Virus record (IMG/VR): IMGVR_UViG_3300029915_000016
Location: 18,613 to 82,612 of that record
Reading direction: 5' to 3' (one strand)
Length of the DNA stretch: 64,000 nucleotides
Source of the DNA: a virus
The stretch's first letter is position 1. Every line of letters begins with the position of its first letter. The notes under the pieces were generated by a model that worked only from the letters and a program-made list of their open reading frames with translations, had not been told where the DNA came from and searched no databases. A program made the position numbers and the translations under genes. Below are positions 29,096 through 63,120 of the stretch, in pieces.

Positions 29096-29165
29096 GGGAC
29101 ACCTCACATCTCAGTAAACGACGTTTTTATCCTTTGCGATGTATCGGATTGAACAGGAGAGTGCA

Positions 29166-30047
29166 ATGAAAAACAGACGATGGGGCGATAACGACAAGTA
29201 TTGGGGTCCGTTTACATACGCGCATTCGGATAAAGAATACAATCCTTTCGCGGTTATACTTGGATCTGGAGACGAGGAGCATCCGGGGTGCTATCTCAGG
29301 CTTGGTGCATTCCATAGGACGCTGATCTGTTCGCTCCCGCCGATCATTCCACCGTATCGCAGGAAGGTAGTTGCGAAGTTTTGGAACGAGGATGACATTA
29401 AGCGTCTAGGACGCAACTGGTACTACGACGTTCATGAGCGTGAGTACGGATTCTCCTATGCCGCGAGTGGATGTATCGGAGATGGTGGATTTCTGCAAGT
29501 CTTTCTTGGCCGTCAGACGCACGACAGCAGCAACGAACAGCGGTGGTCATGCTTCACGCCATGGAATAAATGGAATAACTGGCGTCATGTGAGGAATAGT
29601 TATTACGGTTTGTATGGAGAGTTTTTTGCATCCGAACCACAGCATCGTATCGACTTCACTACGAAGGCAGGAAACGACAAGTACGCGGAGTGGACGGCGA
29701 TTGTGGATGCTTGCCCTACGTTTACGTTCGCATTCAATGACTTTGACGGTGAGTTGCTAACCGCCAAAACTCGTATCGAGGAGCGCCAGTGGGAACTTGG
29801 AACTGGATGGTTTAAGTGGCTATCTAATTTCCATAAGCCAATCATTCACCGTTCGCTTGATATTCAATTCTCAGGCGAAACCGGAAAGCGCAAAGGATCA
29901 TGGAAGGGTGGCACGGTAGGACATTCTATCGAGATGCTACCCGGAGAACTGCACGAGTCGGCGTTTAAGAGATACTGCAAAGAGCACGATATGGTATTCC
30001 TTGGCAGGAGCGGAATAGGAGCATTTGACAATTCCCGTAGTGTGTGA
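29166..30047 (+). CDS. Conserved phage protein of unknown function
   Basis: 293 residues from the ATG with AGGAG. Motifs familiar from many phage genomes: RRWGDNDKYWGPFTYA near the start, TLICSLPPIIPPYR, YGFSY, and GTGWFKWLS with RRxDIQFSGETG-like spacing near the end. No biochemical function is known to me. It precedes the terminator that separates it from the tRNA array. Confidence 0.6.
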   Translation: MKNRRWGDNDKYWGPFTYAHSDKEYNPFAVILGSGDEEHPGCYLRLGAFHRTLICSLPPIIPPYRRKVVAKFWNEDDIKRLGRNWYYDVHEREYGFSYAASGCIGDGGFLQVFLGRQTHDSSNEQRWSCFTPWNKWNNWRHVRNSYYGLYGEFFASEPQHRIDFTTKAGNDKYAEWTAIVDACPTFTFAFNDFDGELLTAKTRIEERQWELGTGWFKWLSNFHKPIIHRSLDIQFSGETGKRKGSWKGGTVGHSIEMLPGELHESAFKRYCKEHDMVFLGRSGIGAFDNSRSV

Positions 30048-33253: not shown

Positions 33254-34441
33254 CTAAATCAGACAGTTTCCGGCTTCAATGGCATCTGCGTTAGCTAAAG
33301 ACTTGCGTCCCAACTTCCGTCTTACGTTGCCTCCACCAGCAGTAGCGCCAATCCCTGACGCCAGTATCCGTAAACCTTCGTCACGGATATTCTTCGCCGC
33401 ATTTATATCGCGGTCATGATGTGTTGAGCAGGATGGGCAGGTCCAAGAACGAACAATTAACGGCATCTTACCATTCTGAAATCCGCACTCGGAACAAACT
33501 TTGCTTGACGGAAAAAAGCGTCCTATTTTTATGAAAGCCTTACCATCGCGCTCTGCTTTGTACTTGAGAAACAATGTTAGTGTTCCCCACCCTACATCTG
33601 ATACTGCTTTCGCAAGGTTATGGTTAGCTATCATTCCCTTCACATTCAAATCCTCTACGATCACGACTTGGTTCTCATCAATGATCTTGCGAGAGACTTT
33701 GTGAAGGTAATCACGGCGCTGGTTTGTGATATGTTCATGAACTCGTGCAACCTGAATACGTGCTTTGTTGCGACTTGATGAGCCTTTCTTTTTGCGACTC
33801 AAAGATTGCTGCTTACGCTTTAGATTCTTTTCTGACTTGGCAATCCAGCGAGGATTATTAAACTTCGATCCATCGCTAGTAATTGCTAAATGCGTTAAAC
33901 CTACGTCTACACCGATTGCCTTCCCTTCGATAGAAATAGGAGGAACAGGAATAGAATCATCGGTAAGAATCGAAGCGTAGTAGTGGCCGCATGGATTCTT
34001 GCTCACCGTGACCGTCTTGATTCGTCCAACAATCTCACGGTGTATGACAGCCTTAACTTTGCCAACTTTAGGAAGATTTATTATACTCCCGTCTATTTTA
34101 ACGTGTTGCGGATACTGAATCGACTGTTTTCTATGCTTAGATTTGAATCGTGGATATCTAGCCCTCTTCTCAAAGAAGTTCTGGAACGCTGCTGCCAAAT
34201 TACGAATTGATGATTGAAGGACTTGCGCGTATGCGTCTTTCATCCATTCATGTTCTGTTTTCAATTCAGGCAAACGATTCGCCATTGCAACAAATGTGAG
34301 ACTTTTTCCGGTTTCCTTGTACACTTTCTGCGTTTCCGCCAAAGCCCAATTCCACGTCCAACGAGCACATCCAAACTGGCATACAAGTAAATTTTCCTGC
34401 TCAAAGGTGGGATAGAGACGAAATTTTGTCGTATTCAACAT
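33254..34441 (-). CDS. tnpB: TnpB (IS200/IS605-type RNA-guided nuclease)
   Basis: 395 residues, complete. RuvC residues: Asp in GVDVGLTHLAITSDG, Glu in VVIVEDLNVKGM, Asp in HDRDINAAKNI; zinc ribbon CSECG...CPSC between the last two. TnpB proteins are RNA-guided DNA nucleases that keep the parent element in place and are ancestors of Cas12. The guide RNA normally comes from the 3' end of the gene and its flank. A consensus promoter ends 7 nt before the ATG, so the mRNA should be leaderless. Confidence 0.9.
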   Translation of the reverse strand: MLNTTKFRLYPTFEQENLLVCQFGCARWTWNWALAETQKVYKETGKSLTFVAMANRLPELKTEHEWMKDAYAQVLQSSIRNLAAAFQNFFEKRARYPRFKSKHRKQSIQYPQHVKIDGSIINLPKVGKVKAVIHREIVGRIKTVTVSKNPCGHYYASILTDDSIPVPPISIEGKAIGVDVGLTHLAITSDGSKFNNPRWIAKSEKNLKRKQQSLSRKKKGSSSRNKARIQVARVHEHITNQRRDYLHKVSRKIIDENQVVIVEDLNVKGMIANHNLAKAVSDVGWGTLTLFLKYKAERDGKAFIKIGRFFPSSKVCSECGFQNGKMPLIVRSWTCPSCSTHHDRDINAAKNIRDEGLRILASGIGATAGGGNVRRKLGRKSLANADAIEAGNCLI

Positions 34442-39195: not shown

Positions 39196-40881
39196 ATGAA
39201 GAACTATATCACCAATGTAATTGATCCATCCACCACGCCTCAGACTGAGGCACTTCCAAACAAAAACCAAGTGAAGAACTCCGCTGGCGGATTCGTGTTT
39301 GCTGTGACGCCATGGACCCGGCTTGAGAGGTTCCTTGTACTGGGAACTGAGGGCGGATCATACTACGCATCAGAGCGCGATCTGACCAAGACCAACATCG
39401 ATGGCCTCAAGTCTGCTTTGGCTGAGGATGGCATCCGGTTTGTCAACACGGTTGCCCAAATCAGTCATGCTGGCCGTGCGCCGAAGAATGATCCTGCGTT
39501 GTTTGCATTGGCTTTGGCTGTTGCCGACAAGCGCAAGGATGTATCCGCATACGCCCTGAGCAAGCTGTCAGACGTGGCGAGAATTCCCACACACCTGTTT
39601 TCCTTTGCACAGTACGTGCAGAGCCTACGGGGTTGGGGAAGGGCGCTGCGTGGTGGAGTGGCTGATTGGTATCTGTCTAAGCCTGCTGACAAGTTGGCTT
39701 ACCAACTTGCAAAGTACCAGTCGCGTAACGGATGGTCAAACGCAGACCTTTTGCGCCTGAGTCATGCCAACCCTGAGTTGCAGCCTGACCATAAGATTCT
39801 TTTGAATTGGGCTGTGAAGGGATGGGAGTCTGTTGGTGACGATCCTCATCCGTCAAAGGCTGTTCTTCCGGTGTGGGCATTTGAAAAGGCAAAGCGCCTC
39901 ACTCCTCAAACGGGAATCAAGGAACTGGTTAGTCTCATTGCGGATTACGATCTTCCGCGTGAGTGCATTCCTACCGAGTTCTTGTCTCATATTGAGGTAT
40001 GGGATGCATTGCTTCAGAAGATGCCAATGACGGCCATGATTCGCAACCTTGGAAAGATGACTTCCATCGGACTAGTCTCGCCAAACAGTGAGGCGGCAAA
40101 GATGGTAGGAAAGCGCCTTGAGGACGCAGAACTGCTCCACAAGGCACGGATTCATCCTATCTCTGTGCTGATGGCACAATCTGTCTACAAGTGCGGTCAT
40201 GGACTCAAAGGCAACTTGTCATGGTCTCCTGTACCGCGTGTTGTAAACGCTCTAGAGAAGGCTTTCTATGCTTCTTTTGCCAACGCACCAAAGACCGGAA
40301 AGAGGTTCTACATCGGCCTTGACGTTTCCGGTTCGATGGGAAGCGGATATGTTGCCGGAAGTCAATTGACTCCTCGTGAGGCTGCTGCTGCTATGGCAAT
40401 GGTAACCATGAAGACGGAGGACGAGTATTACATCGCTGGATTCACGAACGGCACATCCCGCTCTGCATGGTCTAGCCAAGGATATGGCTCTGGTGTCACG
40501 AAGTTGGAATTGACTCCTGATATGACTTTGAAAGCTGCTTGCCGGTACACTTCTGATTTGCCTTTCGGTGGAACAGACTGCGCTTTGCCAATGATCGATG
40601 CTTTGGAGAAGAAGATCCCTGCGGACGTGTTCATGGTCATCACTGACTCTGAAACGTGGGCAGGAACCAAGCACCCAACCGTTGCTTTGCAGGAATACCG
40701 CAACAAGATGAAGATCGACGCCAAGTTGATCGTCATGGGAATGGTATCGAACGAGTTCACGATTGCCGATCCTACCGATGCGGGACAGATGGACGTGGTT
40801 GGATTCGATGCGTCCGTTCCACAGGTCATCGCTCAGTTCATCGGCGTGGATGAGCCTCTGGCTGTTGAAACAGACGACTAA
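39196..40881 (+). CDS. rsr: TROVE-domain Ro60/Rsr protein
   Basis: 561 residues, complete. The HEAT-repeat TROVE part begins with the family signature GGFVFAVTPWTRLERFLVLG and TEGGSYY. The C-terminal von Willebrand A domain has the full MIDAS: DVSGS at residues 376-380, Thr in FGGTDC near 460 and ITDSETW near 480. Ro60 is a ring that binds misfolded or 3'-ended RNAs in its cavity and Y RNAs on its outer surface. In bacteria Rsr works with Y RNAs and exonucleases such as PNPase in rRNA processing and stress decay. Eight Y-RNA genes lie directly upstream. In a phage, roles in tRNA quality control, host RNA decay or protection are possible. Confidence 0.93.
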   Translation: MKNYITNVIDPSTTPQTEALPNKNQVKNSAGGFVFAVTPWTRLERFLVLGTEGGSYYASERDLTKTNIDGLKSALAEDGIRFVNTVAQISHAGRAPKNDPALFALALAVADKRKDVSAYALSKLSDVARIPTHLFSFAQYVQSLRGWGRALRGGVADWYLSKPADKLAYQLAKYQSRNGWSNADLLRLSHANPELQPDHKILLNWAVKGWESVGDDPHPSKAVLPVWAFEKAKRLTPQTGIKELVSLIADYDLPRECIPTEFLSHIEVWDALLQKMPMTAMIRNLGKMTSIGLVSPNSEAAKMVGKRLEDAELLHKARIHPISVLMAQSVYKCGHGLKGNLSWSPVPRVVNALEKAFYASFANAPKTGKRFYIGLDVSGSMGSGYVAGSQLTPREAAAAMAMVTMKTEDEYYIAGFTNGTSRSAWSSQGYGSGVTKLELTPDMTLKAACRYTSDLPFGGTDCALPMIDALEKKIPADVFMVITDSETWAGTKHPTVALQEYRNKMKIDAKLIVMGMVSNEFTIADPTDAGQMDVVGFDASVPQVIAQFIGVDEPLAVETDD

Positions 40882-44146: not shown

Positions 44147-44152
44147 GTGAAT

Positions 44153-45286
44153 GTGAGCATTAAACGCGCATATCGTTTTCGAGTTACCCCCACGCCTGCT
44201 CAAGAGAACATCCTTGCTCGGACGTTTGGGAGTGCGCGTTTTGCCTACAATTACATGCTTCGTCTGCGAACGGATGCATGGTTCAACGAACAGAAGAGAA
44301 TCGGCTACCATGAAACCTCCGCTATTCTGACAAAACTAAAGGATAATCCAGAATTCGAGTGGTTGAACGAAGTCAGTTGTGTTCCCGTCCAGCAATCGTT
44401 AAGGCACCTCCAAACCGCTTTTGGAAACTTCTTTGCGCACCGGAACAAGTATCCTATGTTCAAGAAGAAGGACGGAAAACAAGCTGCGGAGTACACAACT
44501 AGCGCATTCAAGTGGGATGGGAAAGAACTGAAACTGGCGAAGATGGATGAACCATTAAATATTATCTGGTCCCGTTCTATCCCTAAAGCGGCTAAGGTAA
44601 CAACTTGTACAGTGTCTAAAGACTGCTCAGGCCGATACTTTGTTTCAATGCTATGCGATGATTCAGTAAGCGCAAAGCCTGAAGTTGATGGGAAAGTTGG
44701 AATTGATCTTGGATTGACACACTTTGCAATTCTGTCCAATGGAGAAAAGATTGCATCTCCTAATACTTTCCGTAAGAACGAAGCTAGACTTGCCATACTG
44801 CAAAGGAGACTAGCAAAGAAGCATAAAGGTTCCGCCAATCGCGCAAAGGCAAAGCTGAAAGTAGCACGTATCCATGCCAAGATAGCCGATACGCGAAAAG
44901 ATTTTCTCCACAAACTCTCTACACGGCTGATAAACGAAAACCAAGTGATCTCCGTCGAGAGTCTAGCAGTAAACAACATGCAAAAGAACCATAGTCTTGC
45001 AAAGTCAATCTCCGATGCGAGTTGGTCAGAGTTTGTGAGGCAACTGGAGTACAAAGCACTTTGGTACGGACGCACTTTAATAGGAATTGATCGCTGGTAT
45101 CCATCTAGTAAACGATGCAACGATTGCGGGTATACCATCGGTTCTCTTCCGTTGAACGTTCGAGAGTGGACTTGTCCAGAGTGCGGCGTGGTCCATGATC
45201 GAGACATAAACGCAGCACGTAATATCTTGGCCGTAGGGCTTGCGGTGTCAGTCTGTGGAGAGGATGTAAGTCCCGTGTTGCTGTAA
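44153..45286 (+). CDS. tnpB: TnpB (IS200/IS605-type RNA-guided nuclease)
   Basis: 377 residues from the GTG at the expected transcription start; a GTG two codons upstream is also in frame. RuvC Asp in IGIDLGLTHFAILSNG, Glu in VISVESLAVNNM, final Asp in HDRDINAARNI; zinc ribbon CNDCG / CPECG. Complete and presumably active. Related to tnpB 1 but clearly diverged. Confidence 0.9.
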   Translation: MSIKRAYRFRVTPTPAQENILARTFGSARFAYNYMLRLRTDAWFNEQKRIGYHETSAILTKLKDNPEFEWLNEVSCVPVQQSLRHLQTAFGNFFAHRNKYPMFKKKDGKQAAEYTTSAFKWDGKELKLAKMDEPLNIIWSRSIPKAAKVTTCTVSKDCSGRYFVSMLCDDSVSAKPEVDGKVGIDLGLTHFAILSNGEKIASPNTFRKNEARLAILQRRLAKKHKGSANRAKAKLKVARIHAKIADTRKDFLHKLSTRLINENQVISVESLAVNNMQKNHSLAKSISDASWSEFVRQLEYKALWYGRTLIGIDRWYPSSKRCNDCGYTIGSLPLNVREWTCPECGVVHDRDINAARNILAVGLAVSVCGEDVSPVLL

Positions 45287-48670: not shown

Positions 48671-49741
48671 ATGAAACTGGTAGCTAAAATCCGGTTGGAT
48701 TCCAACGCAGAACAAGCAAAACTTCTTCTGCGCACGTTGGAAACAGCAAACGAGTGTGCCAATTGGATGAGCCATGAAGCGTGGGAAAACAAAGTATTTA
48801 CGCCATTCTCGCTCCACAAATTTCTCTACCATGATGCTCGTGAGCGATTTCCACTCTCTGCTCAGATGGTTGTTCGACTGTTTTCCAAGGTCTGCGATGC
48901 CTACAAATTGGACAAGAAGACGGAACGTCGTTTTTCCAAGCATGGAGCCATCAGCTACGATTCTCGCATTCTGAGCTATGGAGAGAACAAGGTTAGCATT
49001 TGGACGTTGGACGGAAGAGAGCCAATCTCGTACTCGGCTGGACCGCGCCAAAAGGAATTGCTTCTCAAGCAACAAGGCGAATCGGATCTGATCTACCATC
49101 GCGGCAAGTGGTTTCTGGCTGCAACGTGCGATGTTACCGATCCCGAACCGATTGTTATTGACGACTTTCTCGGGGTTGATCTTGGCGTAGTTGAGATTGC
49201 CACCGATTCCGATGGACAATCGTTCTCTGGTTCTATGGTCAAAGGGGTTCGTTACAGATGCCGTAAACTCCGTTCTAAACTCCAAGCGGCGCAGAGCAAA
49301 TCTGCTAAACGACATTTGAAGAAACTTTCCGGCAAAGAAGCGCGTTTTGCTGCTGACGTAAACCATTGCATTGCGAAACAAATCGTTGAAAAAGCCAAAC
49401 GCACGAATCGTGGTATTGCCATTGAAGAACTTACTGGTATACGCACGAGGATTAGGGCTAGGAAACCTCAACGAACGATATTGCATTCTTGGGCATTCGC
49501 GCAGTTGGGAACATTCTTGACATATAAGGCCGTCCTTGCGGGCGTACCTTTGGTCAAGGTTGATCCTCGTAATTCTAGTCGTGAATGTTCCAAGTGTGGG
49601 CATACTAAAAAGTTGAACCGTCCTTCGCAATCCAAGTTTCGGTGCAAGTCTTGTGGTTATGAGGCAAACGCCGATTTTAACGCTGCTCTTAATATTCGGA
49701 GCAGGGCCTCAGTCAATAGGCCAATCGTAGCCTGTATTTAG
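48671..49741 (+). CDS. tnpB: TnpB-family RNA-guided nuclease (distinct subfamily)
   Basis: 356 residues, complete. RuvC Asp in LGVDLGVVEIATDSDG, Glu in IAIEELTGIR, final Asp in NADFNAALNI; zinc ribbon CSKCG...CKSCG. The sequence differs strongly from the other two TnpB genes, for example KAVLAGVPLVKVDPRNSS before the ribbon, so it belongs to another subfamily that nevertheless uses the same end hairpins. Confidence 0.85.
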   Translation: MKLVAKIRLDSNAEQAKLLLRTLETANECANWMSHEAWENKVFTPFSLHKFLYHDARERFPLSAQMVVRLFSKVCDAYKLDKKTERRFSKHGAISYDSRILSYGENKVSIWTLDGREPISYSAGPRQKELLLKQQGESDLIYHRGKWFLAATCDVTDPEPIVIDDFLGVDLGVVEIATDSDGQSFSGSMVKGVRYRCRKLRSKLQAAQSKSAKRHLKKLSGKEARFAADVNHCIAKQIVEKAKRTNRGIAIEELTGIRTRIRARKPQRTILHSWAFAQLGTFLTYKAVLAGVPLVKVDPRNSSRECSKCGHTKKLNRPSQSKFRCKSCGYEANADFNAALNIRSRASVNRPIVACI

Positions 49742-56616: not shown

Positions 56617-57789
56617 ATGGCAACCGATTTGACTATCATTGATCCTAAAACGATTGGATCAGAACTTCAGAAGTACAAGGGACAAATGGAAGCAGCCTTA
56701 CCGCGTCACATGACGGCGGATAGGATGGCAAGAATTGCCTTAACATCCTTGCGTGTTAACCCAAAGCTGTTGAACTGTACTCGTGAGTCGTTTTACGGGT
56801 CACTCATGGCCGCGTCTCAGTTGGGTCTTGAGCCGGGAATTAACGGTCAATGCTATCTGATCCCCTACAAGGCAACTTGCACCCTCATCCCCGGATGGCG
56901 TGGGTACATGGAGTTGCTGAACAGGACAGAGAGGGCGTCGGCGTGGACTGAGGCTGTCTATGATGGTGATGAGTTTGATTACGCTCTTGGAACCAATCCA
57001 ACCATCCATCACAAGCGCGGAAAGTGGGCAGGTACGGAAGCTGCTTTGCAGTTTGTGTATGCGGTAGGACGCATCAAGAACTCCGACTTCCCTATCATCG
57101 ACGTATGGGATATTGCGAAGATTTGGGCGCATCGGGACAAGAATAACAAGTGCTACGACAAATCCGATCATTACTCGTTCAAGCATCCTGAGATGTATTC
57201 ACGGAAGATTCCTCTGCTCCAAGTGTTGAAGTATCTTCCATCGTCTATCGAGTTGGCGAACGCCTCTGCGCTTGACGTGACGGGAACTGAGGGACGGCAA
57301 GCTCTCACTATCGACATGGCTCTTACGGGAGCTTTGGAGAACGGTGCTGATTCCGGGACGCCTAACGAGAATGATCCACGCGAACAGGAACTTGAAACGT
57401 TGTTTGAGAAGTTGGGCAAGAACCCCACCGAGCGCAAGATGTTGCGGGACTCGTATCTGCCACAGGGTAAGATTGACGAACTGATTGCCTCTCTGAAGGG
57501 GCGGTTAGCGCCTGAAGTGAGGACTCAACAGACTCAGGAGCAGAAGCCATCAGAGACAGTGCAACAGACCACCACAGCGGCACAGGACACGCCTCAGACT
57601 CAGCAGACCACCGCACGGCGTCGTGGACGGCCTACACGGGAAGAGATGGCAGCACGGCAACAGGCGGCAGCGCAGCAGGAAACCGCTCAACCTGACACGC
57701 AAGCATCGGCGCAAGCACAGACCGAGCAACCGGCACAGGAATCAAAACCAGTGCAAGCATCGGAATCAGGGCAGTTCTCGTTCGTGTAA
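56617..57789 (+). CDS. recT: RecT-family single-strand annealing protein
   Basis: 390 residues. The RecT signature is clear: ARIALTSLRVNPKLLNCTRESF, GSLMAASQLGLEPGINGQCYLIPY and TLIPGWRGYMELLNR, then RKIPLLQVLKYLP. RecT coats single-stranded DNA and anneals it to a complementary strand, working with a 5'-3' exonuclease. The nuclease and the Rad50-like ATPase downstream are likely partners. The C-terminal 110 residues are Gln/Ala/Pro-rich with an AT-hook-like RRRGRPTREE, unlike most RecT proteins. Confidence 0.88.
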   Translation: MATDLTIIDPKTIGSELQKYKGQMEAALPRHMTADRMARIALTSLRVNPKLLNCTRESFYGSLMAASQLGLEPGINGQCYLIPYKATCTLIPGWRGYMELLNRTERASAWTEAVYDGDEFDYALGTNPTIHHKRGKWAGTEAALQFVYAVGRIKNSDFPIIDVWDIAKIWAHRDKNNKCYDKSDHYSFKHPEMYSRKIPLLQVLKYLPSSIELANASALDVTGTEGRQALTIDMALTGALENGADSGTPNENDPREQELETLFEKLGKNPTERKMLRDSYLPQGKIDELIASLKGRLAPEVRTQQTQEQKPSETVQQTTTAAQDTPQTQQTTARRRGRPTREEMAARQQAAAQQETAQPDTQASAQAQTEQPAQESKPVQASESGQFSFV

Positions 57790-57911: not shown

Positions 57912-58220
57912 ATGAAAATCATCGCGACAGTTAACAGTAGAAACTTTATTGCCGAATTATCTATCTCGGAGATTGATTACCTAGCAGGTAAGAAGATCGG
58001 AGAAGAAAAAGTATACTACGGCAATGAGAGATCTGTCACGACTGGAACAACCTTCAATATCGTAAAAGCATTCGATCAGATTCACAGAAATGATGAGAGA
58101 AAGAAGCAGGTAGAGTATTTACGCGCCACACTGAACGCGATGCTTGTTGGTTTGGATATGATTGAACCTCTGATTGAGGAGCCAAAGGTTGAGGAAAAAG
58201 AACCGGAGGCTCAATCATGA
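57912..58220 (+). CDS. Small hypothetical protein
   Basis: 102 residues from the ATG after GGGAGGGG. Beta-rich start, then helical and acidic (EPKVEEKEPEAQS at the end). The 122 bp upstream contain hairpins ACCTT / AAGGT and GCGCG-type repeats but no gene. Confidence 0.5.
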   Translation: MKIIATVNSRNFIAELSISEIDYLAGKKIGEEKVYYGNERSVTTGTTFNIVKAFDQIHRNDERKKQVEYLRATLNAMLVGLDMIEPLIEEPKVEEKEPEAQS

Positions 58221-58645
58221 ACGCTCTGACAAAGTACGTGTATGACAATACGGAGAGAGGGGAATGTAAATGCGGAAAATGCATAGATTCCGGCAACTCT
58301 CCCGATCCAACCGGGCATACAATCGACATGGTTTTCTTCAAAGTCGCCGTTGATGATGGGGCGTCAATAGATACGTTCAAAGAATTAACGGAAGGGAATC
58401 AAGATGGAGATTTCTGCTCTCTCAATCCGTTGGACGGCAAGGAACATAACTACATGGAACTAGGAGCGTGGATAGGTGACCAAGGACTCGCAATGATGTA
58501 CATGGCTCTTGGCGTGTCTGTTGGTGCGTTCACTCTCCTAAGTCCATCAATGCTTGGATTGAGTGGTCCAGATGCTCTTCAGTTGGCTGGAATGGGTATG
58601 CTGGCAATTCAAGTGAAGAAAGATCAGGTTGAGGTAGCGGCGTGA
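58217..58645 (+). CDS. Hypothetical protein with Cys motif
   Basis: 142 residues, ATGA overlap. ERGECKCGKCIDSG near residue 15 is a small Cys motif seen in several phage proteins. A hydrophobic Met/Gly-rich stretch lies near residues 90-125. Unknown. Confidence 0.5.
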   Translation: MNALTKYVYDNTERGECKCGKCIDSGNSPDPTGHTIDMVFFKVAVDDGASIDTFKELTEGNQDGDFCSLNPLDGKEHNYMELGAWIGDQGLAMMYMALGVSVGAFTLLSPSMLGLSGPDALQLAGMGMLAIQVKKDQVEVAA

Positions 58646-59664
58646 AAATCGATAATGGATTCAATCTCTACGTTGACGTAACATCTGCCTGCAATGCATC
58701 GTGCCCGTTTTGTATTGCCCCTACTGTTGGCAGGAAAGACGGGATAGGATTCCTTTCTGGCTTGCAATGGGGTTTGACTTTTACAGAAAAGCATGATGGC
58801 TCTGTGCAAGTTACAGGTGGAGAGCCTAGCTTTAGCAGACGATTGCCGATTGTGCTCAACGAAGTAGGAAATCATTCATTCCATCGAAAAGTATTCAACA
58901 GCAACGGGAGTGGAATTGATAGGAGAGTGGTTGGATTATTCTTAGATGCAGGAATTACGCACGTTAATCTGAGCCGTCACCACTACGTTGAGCAGCGTAA
59001 TCAGGAAGTCATGCGCTTCAGCCATGCAGAGTGGGGAAGCGATGAAAGATTCAAGGCGGCAGTTCGGTTGATTCATGAGGCTGGAATTCTTGTACGTGTG
59101 AACTGCAACCTGCTTGCTGGTTATGTGGATTCCGTATCGTCTATGGAGAGGTTTGTTTCGTGGTGCGAATCGTTCGGCGTGAATGACGTGGCATTTTCTG
59201 AGACATTCCATCTCGGTATGTACGAACATAACCTTCCAATCGAATCAGGATACGCAGAGAAGATGGGTGTTGATCTCCAGTATATCGTCAGACGACTCGA
59301 TGCAGAGTGGAACCCTGTCTATGAAACCGCATCAGAGAAGATGGCGAGTTGGGGGCAAACGCAATGGATAAGTTCTTTCTTGGTTGGTGGTCATCGGCGT
59401 TTCTGGAACACGTCAATCGGTGGTCAGATTTCAATTAAGACTATGGCTGGATGGAATCAAGATGGTACTCCGAAACCTCCAATATATTCCAAGGCGGACG
59501 ATCCAGAGTTACGGGATGGAGAAATCTACTTTGCTGTAGTTCATCCAGACGGAGTAGTATCTGCATCGTGGGATAAGAGTGAAAGAAAACTCTTTGTTCC
59601 GAGCGATCTTATTGTTTTAGAACCATTGAAGATGAAGGGTGATTTTCTGGAGGCTTATGCATGA
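58642..59664 (+). CDS. Radical SAM enzyme
   Basis: 340 residues, GTG start overlapping the previous stop. The Fe-S motif CNASCPFC (Cys17, Cys21, Cys24) and the SAM-binding GGEPSFS at about residue 60 place it in the radical SAM superfamily. The C-terminal part lacks an obvious second cluster; it ends with HPDGVVSASWDKSERK. Substrate unknown; nucleotide, tRNA or peptide modification are all possible. It lies within the recombination operon, an unusual context. Confidence 0.85.
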   Translation: MKIDNGFNLYVDVTSACNASCPFCIAPTVGRKDGIGFLSGLQWGLTFTEKHDGSVQVTGGEPSFSRRLPIVLNEVGNHSFHRKVFNSNGSGIDRRVVGLFLDAGITHVNLSRHHYVEQRNQEVMRFSHAEWGSDERFKAAVRLIHEAGILVRVNCNLLAGYVDSVSSMERFVSWCESFGVNDVAFSETFHLGMYEHNLPIESGYAEKMGVDLQYIVRRLDAEWNPVYETASEKMASWGQTQWISSFLVGGHRRFWNTSIGGQISIKTMAGWNQDGTPKPPIYSKADDPELRDGEIYFAVVHPDGVVSASWDKSERKLFVPSDLIVLEPLKMKGDFLEAYA

Positions 59665-59873
59665 GACACCGTAAGCAAATGATACCGCGCAAGCCAAAGG
59701 ATATTCTAGGACTTGCTTTGAAGAATCTATCGGTAGGTGAGGAAGTGTTCTGCACATCCAAGACCTACGATGCGATCAAGGACCGAGTACACGAGTTTAC
59801 ACAAGCTCGTCAGGACCGTAGCTGGTCGATATTACAGTGGGGATCGATCAAGAAGATCAAGAGGACCGCATGA
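59661..59873 (+). CDS. Small basic protein
   Basis: 70 residues, overlapping both neighbours. Basic with SVGEEVFCTSKTYDAIKDRV in the middle and a basic C-terminus. Unknown. Confidence 0.5.
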   Translation: MRHRKQMIPRKPKDILGLALKNLSVGEEVFCTSKTYDAIKDRVHEFTQARQDRSWSILQWGSIKKIKRTA

Positions 59874-61180
59874 GCACAGAACTGGTAAAGATTCAACCGA
59901 GTCCTATCCCGCCACTGAGACAATCAACTCAGGAGTGTCTTAGTTGCCCTAGATTCTACGTTGAAGTCTTCATCAAGGGGCGTAGGACTCCAAGCGGTAT
60001 GGACGCTATGCGCGGAACCGAAATCCATAATACGATGTCTCTGTACCTGTCACATTGCGCTCGCAAGGGTGTAGGAATGGATTTAGACGCCTTCGATAAT
60101 TTTAGCCGTGGTGCAGGACCGCAGGCGTTTAAGATTCTCTCAGGGCTTAGAGATGGTTATCAAGTTGATTACAACAACCTTTTTGCCACGGAAATACGAA
60201 TGGCGTTGGATGAGAATTTTCAACCAACCGATATTGCAGAAGGGTTTCAAGGTCTAGTACAGGACAGCGGTCTACCTGTCGCATACGAGGGTACTCTGGA
60301 TGGACTCTACATGTTCCGCTCAGAGAACACTATTCTAATTGACGACTTCAAATCTCACGTTAAGCCATACGAGCCGAAGGATAAGCCGCAGGCAAAAGAA
60401 TACGCGCTGTTCGTTTTCCAGCACTTCCCTTGGGTTATGACGGTTAAGTTCAGATTGACATTCGTCAGATACAAGCGTTTGACTCGTGAGGTTGTGTTTG
60501 AGCGTTCTGACGTTCCAACTCTTATTGAGGACTTACGTGCTGCTCGTTCAAAACAGATAATGGTGCATGACAATTACGATGCAGGGAACGATATTCAACC
60601 AATCGGCGGATCTCACTGCTTCTACTGCCATCTTCTATCTAACCGTACCTGTCCTATCGCTGAATATAACGAAAACATGCAGTTGACAATGGAAGACAGG
60701 TTGAGTTGGGATAATTGGAACAGTGCTTTCAGTAGGGCAAACAAGAAAGTGTTGAGAGATTATGTGCAGGCAACTGGTAGACGTGTCGTTCTCCGTGACT
60801 ATATGGGGAAGTCGTATGTGTTCGATAAAGAAAGTAAGGAATCAAACGTATATCCGTTGTTTGTAAGAAACGGAAAGGATATTCTAACAGACCCGTCAGG
60901 ATCGCCTATTATGCCTATAGTAGGTCTGTTATTGACACATCGAGAAATTTCACCAGAGGATTGCGATTGGTTGCCGAATATCGTGATTTCCTCTAGCAAA
61001 CTGGAGAGTTATTTGAAAGCGTCTAAGAGGGTAATCACTCACAACGCGGTACAGGACACGGCAGAGAAAGTAACCAAGGTGATAATGAAAGTATCAAAGC
61101 CTTTAGATGTTCTTCCCCCGGACGACTTCGAGGATGAGGACGGAGACGATGGGGAGTTTGGTGAGGACACAGATTTCTAA
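59870..61180 (+). CDS. PD-(D/E)XK exonuclease (Cas4/RecB-like)
   Basis: 436 residues from the ATG overlapping the previous stop. An early Cys pair (CLSCPRFY, residues about 26-29), a GTEIH motif near 45, then YEGTLDGLYMF and LIDDFKSH (catalytic Asp...Asp-x-Lys), QAKEYALFVF (helix with Gln) and a later CFYCHLLSNRTC. This is the layout of Cas4/AddB nucleases with a four-Cys Fe-S cluster. It probably supplies single strands for RecT. The C-terminal 25 residues are Asp/Glu-rich. Confidence 0.75.
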   Translation: MSTELVKIQPSPIPPLRQSTQECLSCPRFYVEVFIKGRRTPSGMDAMRGTEIHNTMSLYLSHCARKGVGMDLDAFDNFSRGAGPQAFKILSGLRDGYQVDYNNLFATEIRMALDENFQPTDIAEGFQGLVQDSGLPVAYEGTLDGLYMFRSENTILIDDFKSHVKPYEPKDKPQAKEYALFVFQHFPWVMTVKFRLTFVRYKRLTREVVFERSDVPTLIEDLRAARSKQIMVHDNYDAGNDIQPIGGSHCFYCHLLSNRTCPIAEYNENMQLTMEDRLSWDNWNSAFSRANKKVLRDYVQATGRRVVLRDYMGKSYVFDKESKESNVYPLFVRNGKDILTDPSGSPIMPIVGLLLTHREISPEDCDWLPNIVISSSKLESYLKASKRVITHNAVQDTAEKVTKVIMKVSKPLDVLPPDDFEDEDGDDGEFGEDTDF

Positions 61181-61209: not shown

Positions 61210-63120
61210 ATGCACATCAAAAAAATTAGGCTCCAATCGATAAGAAACCACGCAGATTCCACGCTCGACCTGTCCGACGCCAAGTTCGTTGTCATCAGAG
61301 GCGTGATGGGCGCAGGTAAGAGCAGTATCGCGCAAGGACTCAGCTTAAACGTGGCTCAATCCACCATGGATTTGTCGGCAGACGGTAAGGGCTTTGTATC
61401 TAAGATCAAGCGTGGGGAGAGTAAAGGTACGATCACGGCTGAGATCCAAGGAAAGCATCTTATCCGTAACGCTGTCACTCTTGATGCTGTGAAGTCTGAG
61501 AGATCGTCTTATGTGGAGTGCTTGGACAATCCAGACGAGAAGGGAATCATCATCGGATTTGCCAACTTCCTGAAGGCGAAGCGAGAGCCTTTGCTGGTGG
61601 CGACGAACACTCAGTATCTCATGTCGGTTAAGGATGAGGCAACGCTGAAGAACATCCTAGCCAAGTTGGTCCTTCCTGCCCATCATGACTTTCCAGAGGA
61701 TAAGATTGCTGCTGTAAACAGTGCGCTTGGGACAGGAATAGTGGACTTCTCAGGAGAGCCGTTTGGGATCATCGAGAAGGCGTATAAACTACTCTACAAA
61801 GAGCGTGAGACGATCAACCGTCAAGTGAAGGAGTTTGTAGTTCCTGATCCCCTACCGGCAGTGCAGGGAGTGGACTCTGCGGCATTGCAGATTAAGCTGA
61901 ATCAGGCTCGTGAGGAGAGACAGAAACTCTCAAACGACAAAGACGAAGCGGTACGCAAGGCGAATGAGATTGAGGTTAAGCGGACACGGTTGCAGACGAG
62001 GATTGAAGGTCTTCAAACCAAGATCACCGATGAGACGAACCGGCTCAAGACGGCAGGGGATAATATCCTGTCTGATGCGAAACTGAAGTCTCTTGCCAAG
62101 ATCGCAGAGGGAAAGGACGCACTGATAAAACTGGAGCGCGAGAGGACCATCCTTTCATCTACTATCGAAGATAACAAGAAGCAGATGGACAGGTTTGAGG
62201 CGTTGCCTGATGCGGGTACTACTTGCCCAACATGCGATCAAGTGATTGATGGGAACAAACTATCGCAGATGGCGGTTAAAGCTGAAATAGACTTTAGGAA
62301 TGCTCAACAGAGGGATAACGAGATCCTGCGCCAGATGCATGAGTTAGGAGACGTAGCAGGAGCACTCTCGTCACTTGCCAAGCACGAGACGGCCATCAAG
62401 GAAAAGGCTGCGATTGAGAGCATCCTAGCGGAGAAGTCTAAGCTGTTGAAGGCAGACCGTACCGAACTGGACGCGCTAGGTATGCAACAGGATGCAACTC
62501 AGGCATTCATCCAGCCTTTAGCCGATGTGGACACGAAGATCAACGCTATACTTTCCCAACTACAGCCAGTCATAGCGGCAGAGCAGAGAAAGACGGAGAT
62601 CGCAACCAAGACAGAGCAGTTGAAGAAACTGCAAGTCAAAGCGGCGAGTCTAAATTCTCTTGTAGTCTATTTTGACAAGGATGGCGTCAAGAAAGATTTG
62701 ATTGACGATAACATAGGTCAATTCGAGGATGACATCAACGAAGTATTGGGAGTATGCGGATACGAGACAACGCTATGCATGGAACCGTTCAGTTTTGAAG
62801 TGAAGACTCCTACTGCCGACTTTGGACCAATGAAGGAACTATCTAAGGCTGAGAGACAGCTATTCCTACCCGCTTTCCAGTGCGCTGTGAGCATCGCGGC
62901 AGGAATCAATATGGTCGTAGTGGACGACATGGATACGTATCTCAAGGAAACCGGACTACGGGGCAAGATTTATGGAAAACTCTACGAACTGATTAGCAAA
63001 GGATTGCTTGAGCAGGTAATCATGATCGAGGCTAGTTCCGACGATAAGTTACCGAATCCACAGGCTCCCGGAAGTTGCTATTTCTTTGTTGAGGGCGGGA
63101 CTGTCAGACGGTTAGGATAA
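61210..63120 (+). CDS. Rad50/SbcC-like SMC ATPase
   Basis: 636 residues. Walker A GVMGAGKSS near residue 35, long coiled coils from about 230 to 470, a zinc-hook CPTCD near residue 340, and a C-terminal Walker B-like MVVVDDMDTYL with preceding LSKAERQLFLP as signature-like motif. Smaller than bacterial SbcC (about 1000 residues) and closer to T4 gp46. Such ATPases act with a nuclease on DNA ends. No SbcD/gp47-type phosphoesterase is visible, so the PD-(D/E)XK protein may be its partner. Confidence 0.8.
   Translation: MHIKKIRLQSIRNHADSTLDLSDAKFVVIRGVMGAGKSSIAQGLSLNVAQSTMDLSADGKGFVSKIKRGESKGTITAEIQGKHLIRNAVTLDAVKSERSSYVECLDNPDEKGIIIGFANFLKAKREPLLVATNTQYLMSVKDEATLKNILAKLVLPAHHDFPEDKIAAVNSALGTGIVDFSGEPFGIIEKAYKLLYKERETINRQVKEFVVPDPLPAVQGVDSAALQIKLNQAREERQKLSNDKDEAVRKANEIEVKRTRLQTRIEGLQTKITDETNRLKTAGDNILSDAKLKSLAKIAEGKDALIKLERERTILSSTIEDNKKQMDRFEALPDAGTTCPTCDQVIDGNKLSQMAVKAEIDFRNAQQRDNEILRQMHELGDVAGALSSLAKHETAIKEKAAIESILAEKSKLLKADRTELDALGMQQDATQAFIQPLADVDTKINAILSQLQPVIAAEQRKTEIATKTEQLKKLQVKAASLNSLVVYFDKDGVKKDLIDDNIGQFEDDINEVLGVCGYETTLCMEPFSFEVKTPTADFGPMKELSKAERQLFLPAFQCAVSIAAGINMVVVDDMDTYLKETGLRGKIYGKLYELISKGLLEQVIMIEASSDDKLPNPQAPGSCYFFVEGGTVRRLG

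Follow-up and report, generated by a model that had tools for sequence, protein, structure and literature searches.

A predicted radical SAM enzyme from a mostly viral family without a curated model, carried in an exchangeable slot of a phage recombination operon

What does a radical SAM (rSAM) enzyme do among the recombination genes of a phage? The question arose from an earlier note on a 64,000-nucleotide stretch of virus record IMGVR_UViG_3300029915_000016 (the window), in which the gene at 58642-59664 was read as a radical SAM enzyme and true operon member that might modify DNA, nucleotides or tRNA.

The gene and its family

The open frame runs from GTG at 58642 to TGA at 59664 (340 amino acids) and is the sole rSAM gene of the 82.6-kb record. 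It combines CxxxCxxC with the PF04055 core of the radical SAM superfamily, scoring 41.9 bits against Pfam Radical_SAM (cut-off 29.5), far above chance. The motif set, described earlier as complete, was found to be so: C17-N-A-S-C21-P-F-C24 (CNASCPFC), G59GEP62 and N86SNG89. The features of the gene are as follows.

58642..59664, + strand: radical SAM enzyme, 340 aa, GTG start (PF04055; AlphaFold model; nearest solved fold MoaA)
58690..58713, + strand: C17xxxC21xxC24, ligands of the SAM-binding [4Fe-4S] cluster (read from the sequence; no exceptions in alignments A3 and A6)
58816..58827, + strand: GGEP motif, residues 59-62 (sequence; alignments)
58972..58983, + strand: S111-R112-H113-H114, family signature ending a core strand (in A3, S111 invariant and R112, H113 and H114 nearly so)
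59104..59106, + strand: C155, conserved non-cluster cysteine in a core strand, candidate H-atom donor (alignments)
59542..59574, + strand: C-terminal HPDGxxSASWD hairpin, probably like a SPASM-type hairpin minus the cysteines (alignment; profile-profile comparison)

The only cysteines are C17, C21, C24, C155 and C175, with none after residue 175. Since these are the cluster ligands plus C155 and C175, no auxiliary cluster is expected. The start overlaps a 142-aa ORF at 58217-58645 (GTGA), with GAGG lying 5' of the GTG, and the stop overlaps a 70-aa ORF beginning at 59661 (ATGA), as had been claimed. The same overlap of a small ORF with the rSAM gene was found in two related loci, L007 and L008, whose enzymes are 68% and 63% identical to that of the window. 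Compared with these two, the window gene gave pN of 0.22-0.25 and pS of 0.76-0.80, nonsynonymous differences being far rarer; between L007 and L008, dN was 0.19 and dS 2.3. Judged from its sequence, the gene is a genuine, intact radical SAM enzyme under purifying selection.

By profile and signature the enzyme is assigned to an uncurated, mostly viral rSAM family, here called SRHH. Members have S-R-H-H following a core strand, C155 in the strand after it, CNL..GYxDS and a C-terminal HPDGxxxxSW hairpin; the window enzyme is recovered by family profile A3 and carries S-R-H-H, C155 and HPDGxxxxSW. Scans of viral and genome contigs with a single sequence as query returned no relatives, and alignments were needed. 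Alignment-based scans yielded 60 viral loci, 35 from cellular assemblies, nearly all of them MAGs, and more; in some MAGs the locus may sit on a phage contig that was binned with bacterial ones. Profile A3, applied to 17 genomes, gave 134-331 bits for family members and at most 94 for other rSAMs. Among about 1,180 sampled bacterial genomes (392, 395 and 398 from three phyla), no member was found at 1e-30, seed genomes aside. Profile-profile alignment (hhalign) matched the window clade to the rSAM2 enzymes at 99.9% over 286 columns and to a megaphage branch at 99.7% over 180 columns (the core). A tree of 77 rows grouped the window, L007 and L008 with the virus locus L012, with L067 from Pacearchaeota and with L074 from Pseudomonadales (support 99/90). 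No report on the family was found in the literature. The 'molybdenum cofactor biosynthesis enzyme' of Dulem virus 40 (XCD03711.1) belongs to the same family (24% identity to the window enzyme; SKAH..N motif, HPNGxxxGSW tail) but has a short second rSAM before it and a GNAT gene after it.

Comparison with known enzymes

The window rSAM came nowhere near a cut-off of the curated subfamily models (NCBIfam), the top one being MoaA at 37.8 bits of 284, and PHROGs gave weak matches only. An AlphaFold model was obtained with pLDDT of 81.5 and pTM of 0.83, residues 227-249 and 327-340 being poor. A full-length fold search with this model placed MoaA first (TM 0.64 over 333 columns, 14% identity), followed by SuiB, SkfB and viperin-like enzymes; EpeE was also among the nearest folds. 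A family profile built from 38 relatives was searched against PDB sequences and gave MoaA at 1.5e-19, SuiB at 6.5e-14, viperins at about 2e-12 and QueE at 0.0018, with MiaB absent among the matches. The comparison with MoaA, viperin, QueE and MiaB that the earlier note proposed thus left MoaA nearest and none assigned.

Although MoaA (GTP 3',8-cyclase) is the best match by both full-length fold and profile, its identity to the window enzyme is low, the three C-terminal cysteines of its second [4Fe-4S] cluster are missing, and other Moa genes were not detected in the record; MoaA was rejected on the equivalog score and the second-cluster cysteines. Viperin (pVip, ddhNTP synthase) shares the rSAM core, with a PADLOC pVip match of 34 bits over residues 11-155, but this match ends with the core, the C-terminal domain is unlike, and NCBIfam NF038283 gave 23.2 bits against a cut-off of 180. 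Viperin was rejected on that equivalog score, and a PADLOC defence-system assignment because the pVip match is partial. The peptide-modifying SuiB, SkfB and EpeE resemble the window enzyme in part of the fold, whereas the latter has neither SPASM/auxiliary cysteines nor an N-terminal extension, and no precursor peptide was recognised at its locus; a SPASM/twitch peptide maturase was excluded by the missing auxiliary-cluster cysteines. QueE was discarded for want of a QueE model match and of QueC/QueD partner domains in the record, and a MiaB/RlmN RNA modifier for want of a UPF0004/TRAM domain or RlmN model match. Assignment to NrdG or to a peptide maturase, the outcome that the earlier note set against its own reading, was not obtained: NrdG2 (TIGR02495) scored 16.9 against 131 bits, the record has no NRDD domain, and no maturase model matched.

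The slot and the rest of the record

The genes around the rSAM are listed below.

56617..57789, + strand: RecT-like annealing protein (PF03837; phrog_148, 192.7 bits)
57912..58220, + strand: 102-aa backbone ORF, left border of the cargo slot (occurs with and without rSAM)
58217..58645, + strand: 142-aa ORF with CKCGKC near the N-terminus, extra slot content in the window phage only (no family match)
59661..59873, + strand: 70-aa ORF, right border of the slot (52% identical to an L119 ORF beyond a different cargo)
59837..61180, + strand: exonuclease-like protein with a late C-x2-C...C cluster (phrog_69, 38.5 bits)
61210..63120, + strand: SbcC-like ATPase (phrog_77, 77.2 bits)

The order RecT-like, 102-aa ORF, rSAM, exonuclease, SbcC-like is common to the window, L007 and L008 (the RecT-like match being weak in L008). 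The 142-aa ORF lacks homologues in L007 and L008 and matched neither Pfam nor PHROGs. The relatives retrieved with the 102-aa ORF included L119 and L120, a 12.3-kb stretch present in identical form on two contigs. Its left flank is 94-95% identical to L007 in nucleotide sequence and its right flank 79%. There the rSAM is exactly swapped for DnaJ/kinase-like, PHROG-2971 and adenylosuccinate-synthetase-like genes (L119:6300-9617; PF00709, 174 bits, for the last). The last gene was rejected as PurZ (30 bits against 300), so a Z-genome is not claimed. In L150, retrieved by an exonuclease search, the exonuclease gene directly follows the 102-aa ORF and cargo is absent. Across these few loci, the slot between the 102-aa ORF and the exonuclease gene holds an rSAM in three (window, L007, L008), the kinase/unknown/adenylosuccinate-synthetase-like module in one (L119) and nothing in one (L150).

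This comparison of gene orders marks the window rSAM as optional, swappable cargo, apart from the recombination machinery. Its operon membership, as claimed before, stands as far as the operon-like overlaps go; a fixed place in the recombination operon does not, the slot being variable and, in one relative, empty. For the same reason a requirement of the rSAM for recombination was dismissed. The 102-aa ORF, found also where the rSAM is missing, was dismissed as a dedicated substrate or partner. The slot shows a place at which phages of this group carry accessory genes that can be exchanged.

Among 62 ORFs of the 82.6-kb record, Pfam found no QueC, QueD, QueE, NrdD, thymidylate-synthase-like or NAD-synthesis domain, which bears out the reported lack of partners for 7-deazaguanine. 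The large tRNA array is real (30 tRNAs by ARAGORN; 25 by Rfam in 29-43.5 kb); its suggested link to the rSAM amounts to co-occurrence. An Acb3-type CBASS inhibitor (window 29139-30044; PF25187, 251 bits) lies just 5' of the array. A Ro60/TROVE protein (window 39196-40878; PF05731, PF25045) is encoded within it, and in the array around this gene Rfam at gathering thresholds gave nothing but tRNAs. Three IS605 OrfB/TnpB-type genes were seen at window positions 33257-34441, 44147-45283 and 48671-49738.

Possible substrates and the sister branches

Our best explanation, held tentatively, is an accessory cargo enzyme acting on a small nucleotide-like metabolite, probably in counter-defence or host takeover. 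C17, C21 and C24 would hold one [4Fe-4S] cluster, at which SAM would be cleaved to a 5'-deoxyadenosyl radical. The substrate would be small, most likely a nucleotide or nucleotide-derived metabolite by analogy with the nearest folds, MoaA and viperin. Its predicted site is at the barrel mouth, formed by R112/H113/H114, N154/C155/N156 and F185-E187 beneath the C-terminal hairpin, and C155 may give back the H atom. A gain to the phage in counter-defence or host takeover would be in keeping with the Acb3 CBASS inhibitor of the same phage, and the sister branches in NAD-salvage modules, described below, count for a small metabolite. Against it must be said that fold likeness is a poor substrate predictor among rSAMs, with SuiB and SkfB close behind MoaA, that genes for NAD or nucleotides are missing beside the rSAM of the window and its two closest relatives, and that one sister branch looks peptide-directed.

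Modification of DNA bases, deoxynucleotides or tRNA, the earlier proposal, is suggested by the place of the gene among recombination genes, by the 30-tRNA array of the same record and by the use of nucleotides by MoaA and viperin. It seems unlikely to us, as QueC/D/E, thymidylate-synthase-like and other modification genes are absent among the 62 ORFs, TRAM/MTTase, RlmN and QueE models do not fit, and the operon also exists without the rSAM; no positive evidence emerged, MiaB being unmatched and QueE far down a list led by MoaA. A nearby-encoded protein or peptide is an equally improbable target. SuiB, SkfB and EpeE are among the nearest folds, and in 14 of 15 loci of the megaphage branch a small ORF ending at the rSAM start has Cys as its last residue (remaining loci, 0 of 51; ORFs at large, 2.3%), with endings such as RSSC, SNGRC, RPSC and TNSRC. 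At the window, however, the 102-aa ORF upstream does not end in a Cys tail and is present where the rSAM is missing, the 142-aa ORF is not conserved, SPASM clusters are missing, and the protein starts at the core, with no space before it for an RRE; a Cys-tail precursor was rejected there, the neighbouring ORFs having tails without Cys. The window enzyme also lacks C19, C248 and C250 (L041 numbering), extra cysteines that are invariant in the megaphage branch and compatible there with an auxiliary cluster whose open site would meet the terminal Cys. For the window clade, both kinds of modification have less support than a small metabolite.

A part in pyridine-nucleotide (NAD) metabolism, such as some of the sister branches seem to play, is more doubtful still for the window enzyme. 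The orders found in relatives are PncA-Prs-rSAM-NAMPT-NadE (L032), PnuC-NadR-rSAM (L003, L037, L041-45), PncA-rSAM-NadD-NadE (L050, L056), NadD-rSAM1-rSAM3-rSAM2 (L070, L075, L078) and PncA-Prs-NAMPT-NadE-Nudix/wHTH-rSAM (L076, in which the Nudix/wHTH protein resembles NrtR). There is also enrichment near the rSAM within genomes: of 14 distinct virus contigs that carry NAPRTase, 7 have it within 8 kb, where 1.7 would be expected (p about 0.0004, or 0.002 when one near-copy contig is left out). Proximity of NadE alone was not significant at 8 kb (p 0.09), so the NAD link is carried by NAPRTase distances and gene order. Yet NAPRTase is more than 8 kb away in half of the contigs bearing it, and no NAD genes lie near the rSAM in the window clade or in L012, L067 and L074, its closest kin. 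In the window, L007 and L008, the genes next to the rSAM include none for NAD or nucleotides; NAPRTase and NAD synthase were not found in the L008 contig, nor any NAD gene in the window record by Pfam or phmmer.

The more surprising results concern the sister branches. The family, mainly from uncultured phages, occurs in three settings, namely the cargo slot, NAD-salvage modules and precursor-like proteins with a C-terminal Cys, and each leads to a concrete, testable substrate hypothesis. A long shot is that the whole family is a viral toolkit for making or attaching a new group derived from a nucleotide (possibly from nicotinamide), either free or on small Cys-ended carriers, with the window enzyme as its stand-alone, swappable anti-defence form.

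Family rSAMs in or beside NAD salvage/synthesis modules were noted in L031, L032, L037, L041-L045, L050, L056, L075, L076, L078, L087, L092 and L093, the nearby genes being PncA, Prs, NAMPT/PncB, NadD, NadE, NadR and PnuC. Cys-tail ORFs were noted in L003, L023, L024, L025, L033, L037, L040, L044, L045, L048, L052, L061, L135 and L143. Their products are small and RiPP-precursor-like, often with a G/S/C-rich tail, and no report on such ORFs preceding these rSAMs was found in the literature. A short RlmN-like rSAM of about 260 aa is encoded about 1-4 kb upstream of the family member in L024, L025, L033, L039, L040, L048, L052, L054 and L061. Short rSAM1 is the tandem partner of rSAM2 at many loci, and in several bacteria the tandem is accompanied by an AMP-binding ligase. 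Chromosome-like loci with rSAM2, mostly together with rSAM1, are L072, L077, L079, L084, L085, L088 and L089; the ligase is near rSAM2 in five of these seven (L077, L084, L085, L088, L089). An N-terminal DHH/DHHA1-phosphoesterase-like domain was recognised by eye on rSAM2 in L071:4918-6891, L076:4957-6729 and L094:3554-5503. At L029:4548-8885, a family member was seen, also by eye, next to NeuB/PseI-like, PseB-like and GNAT genes, neighbours that suggest a nonulosonate pathway.
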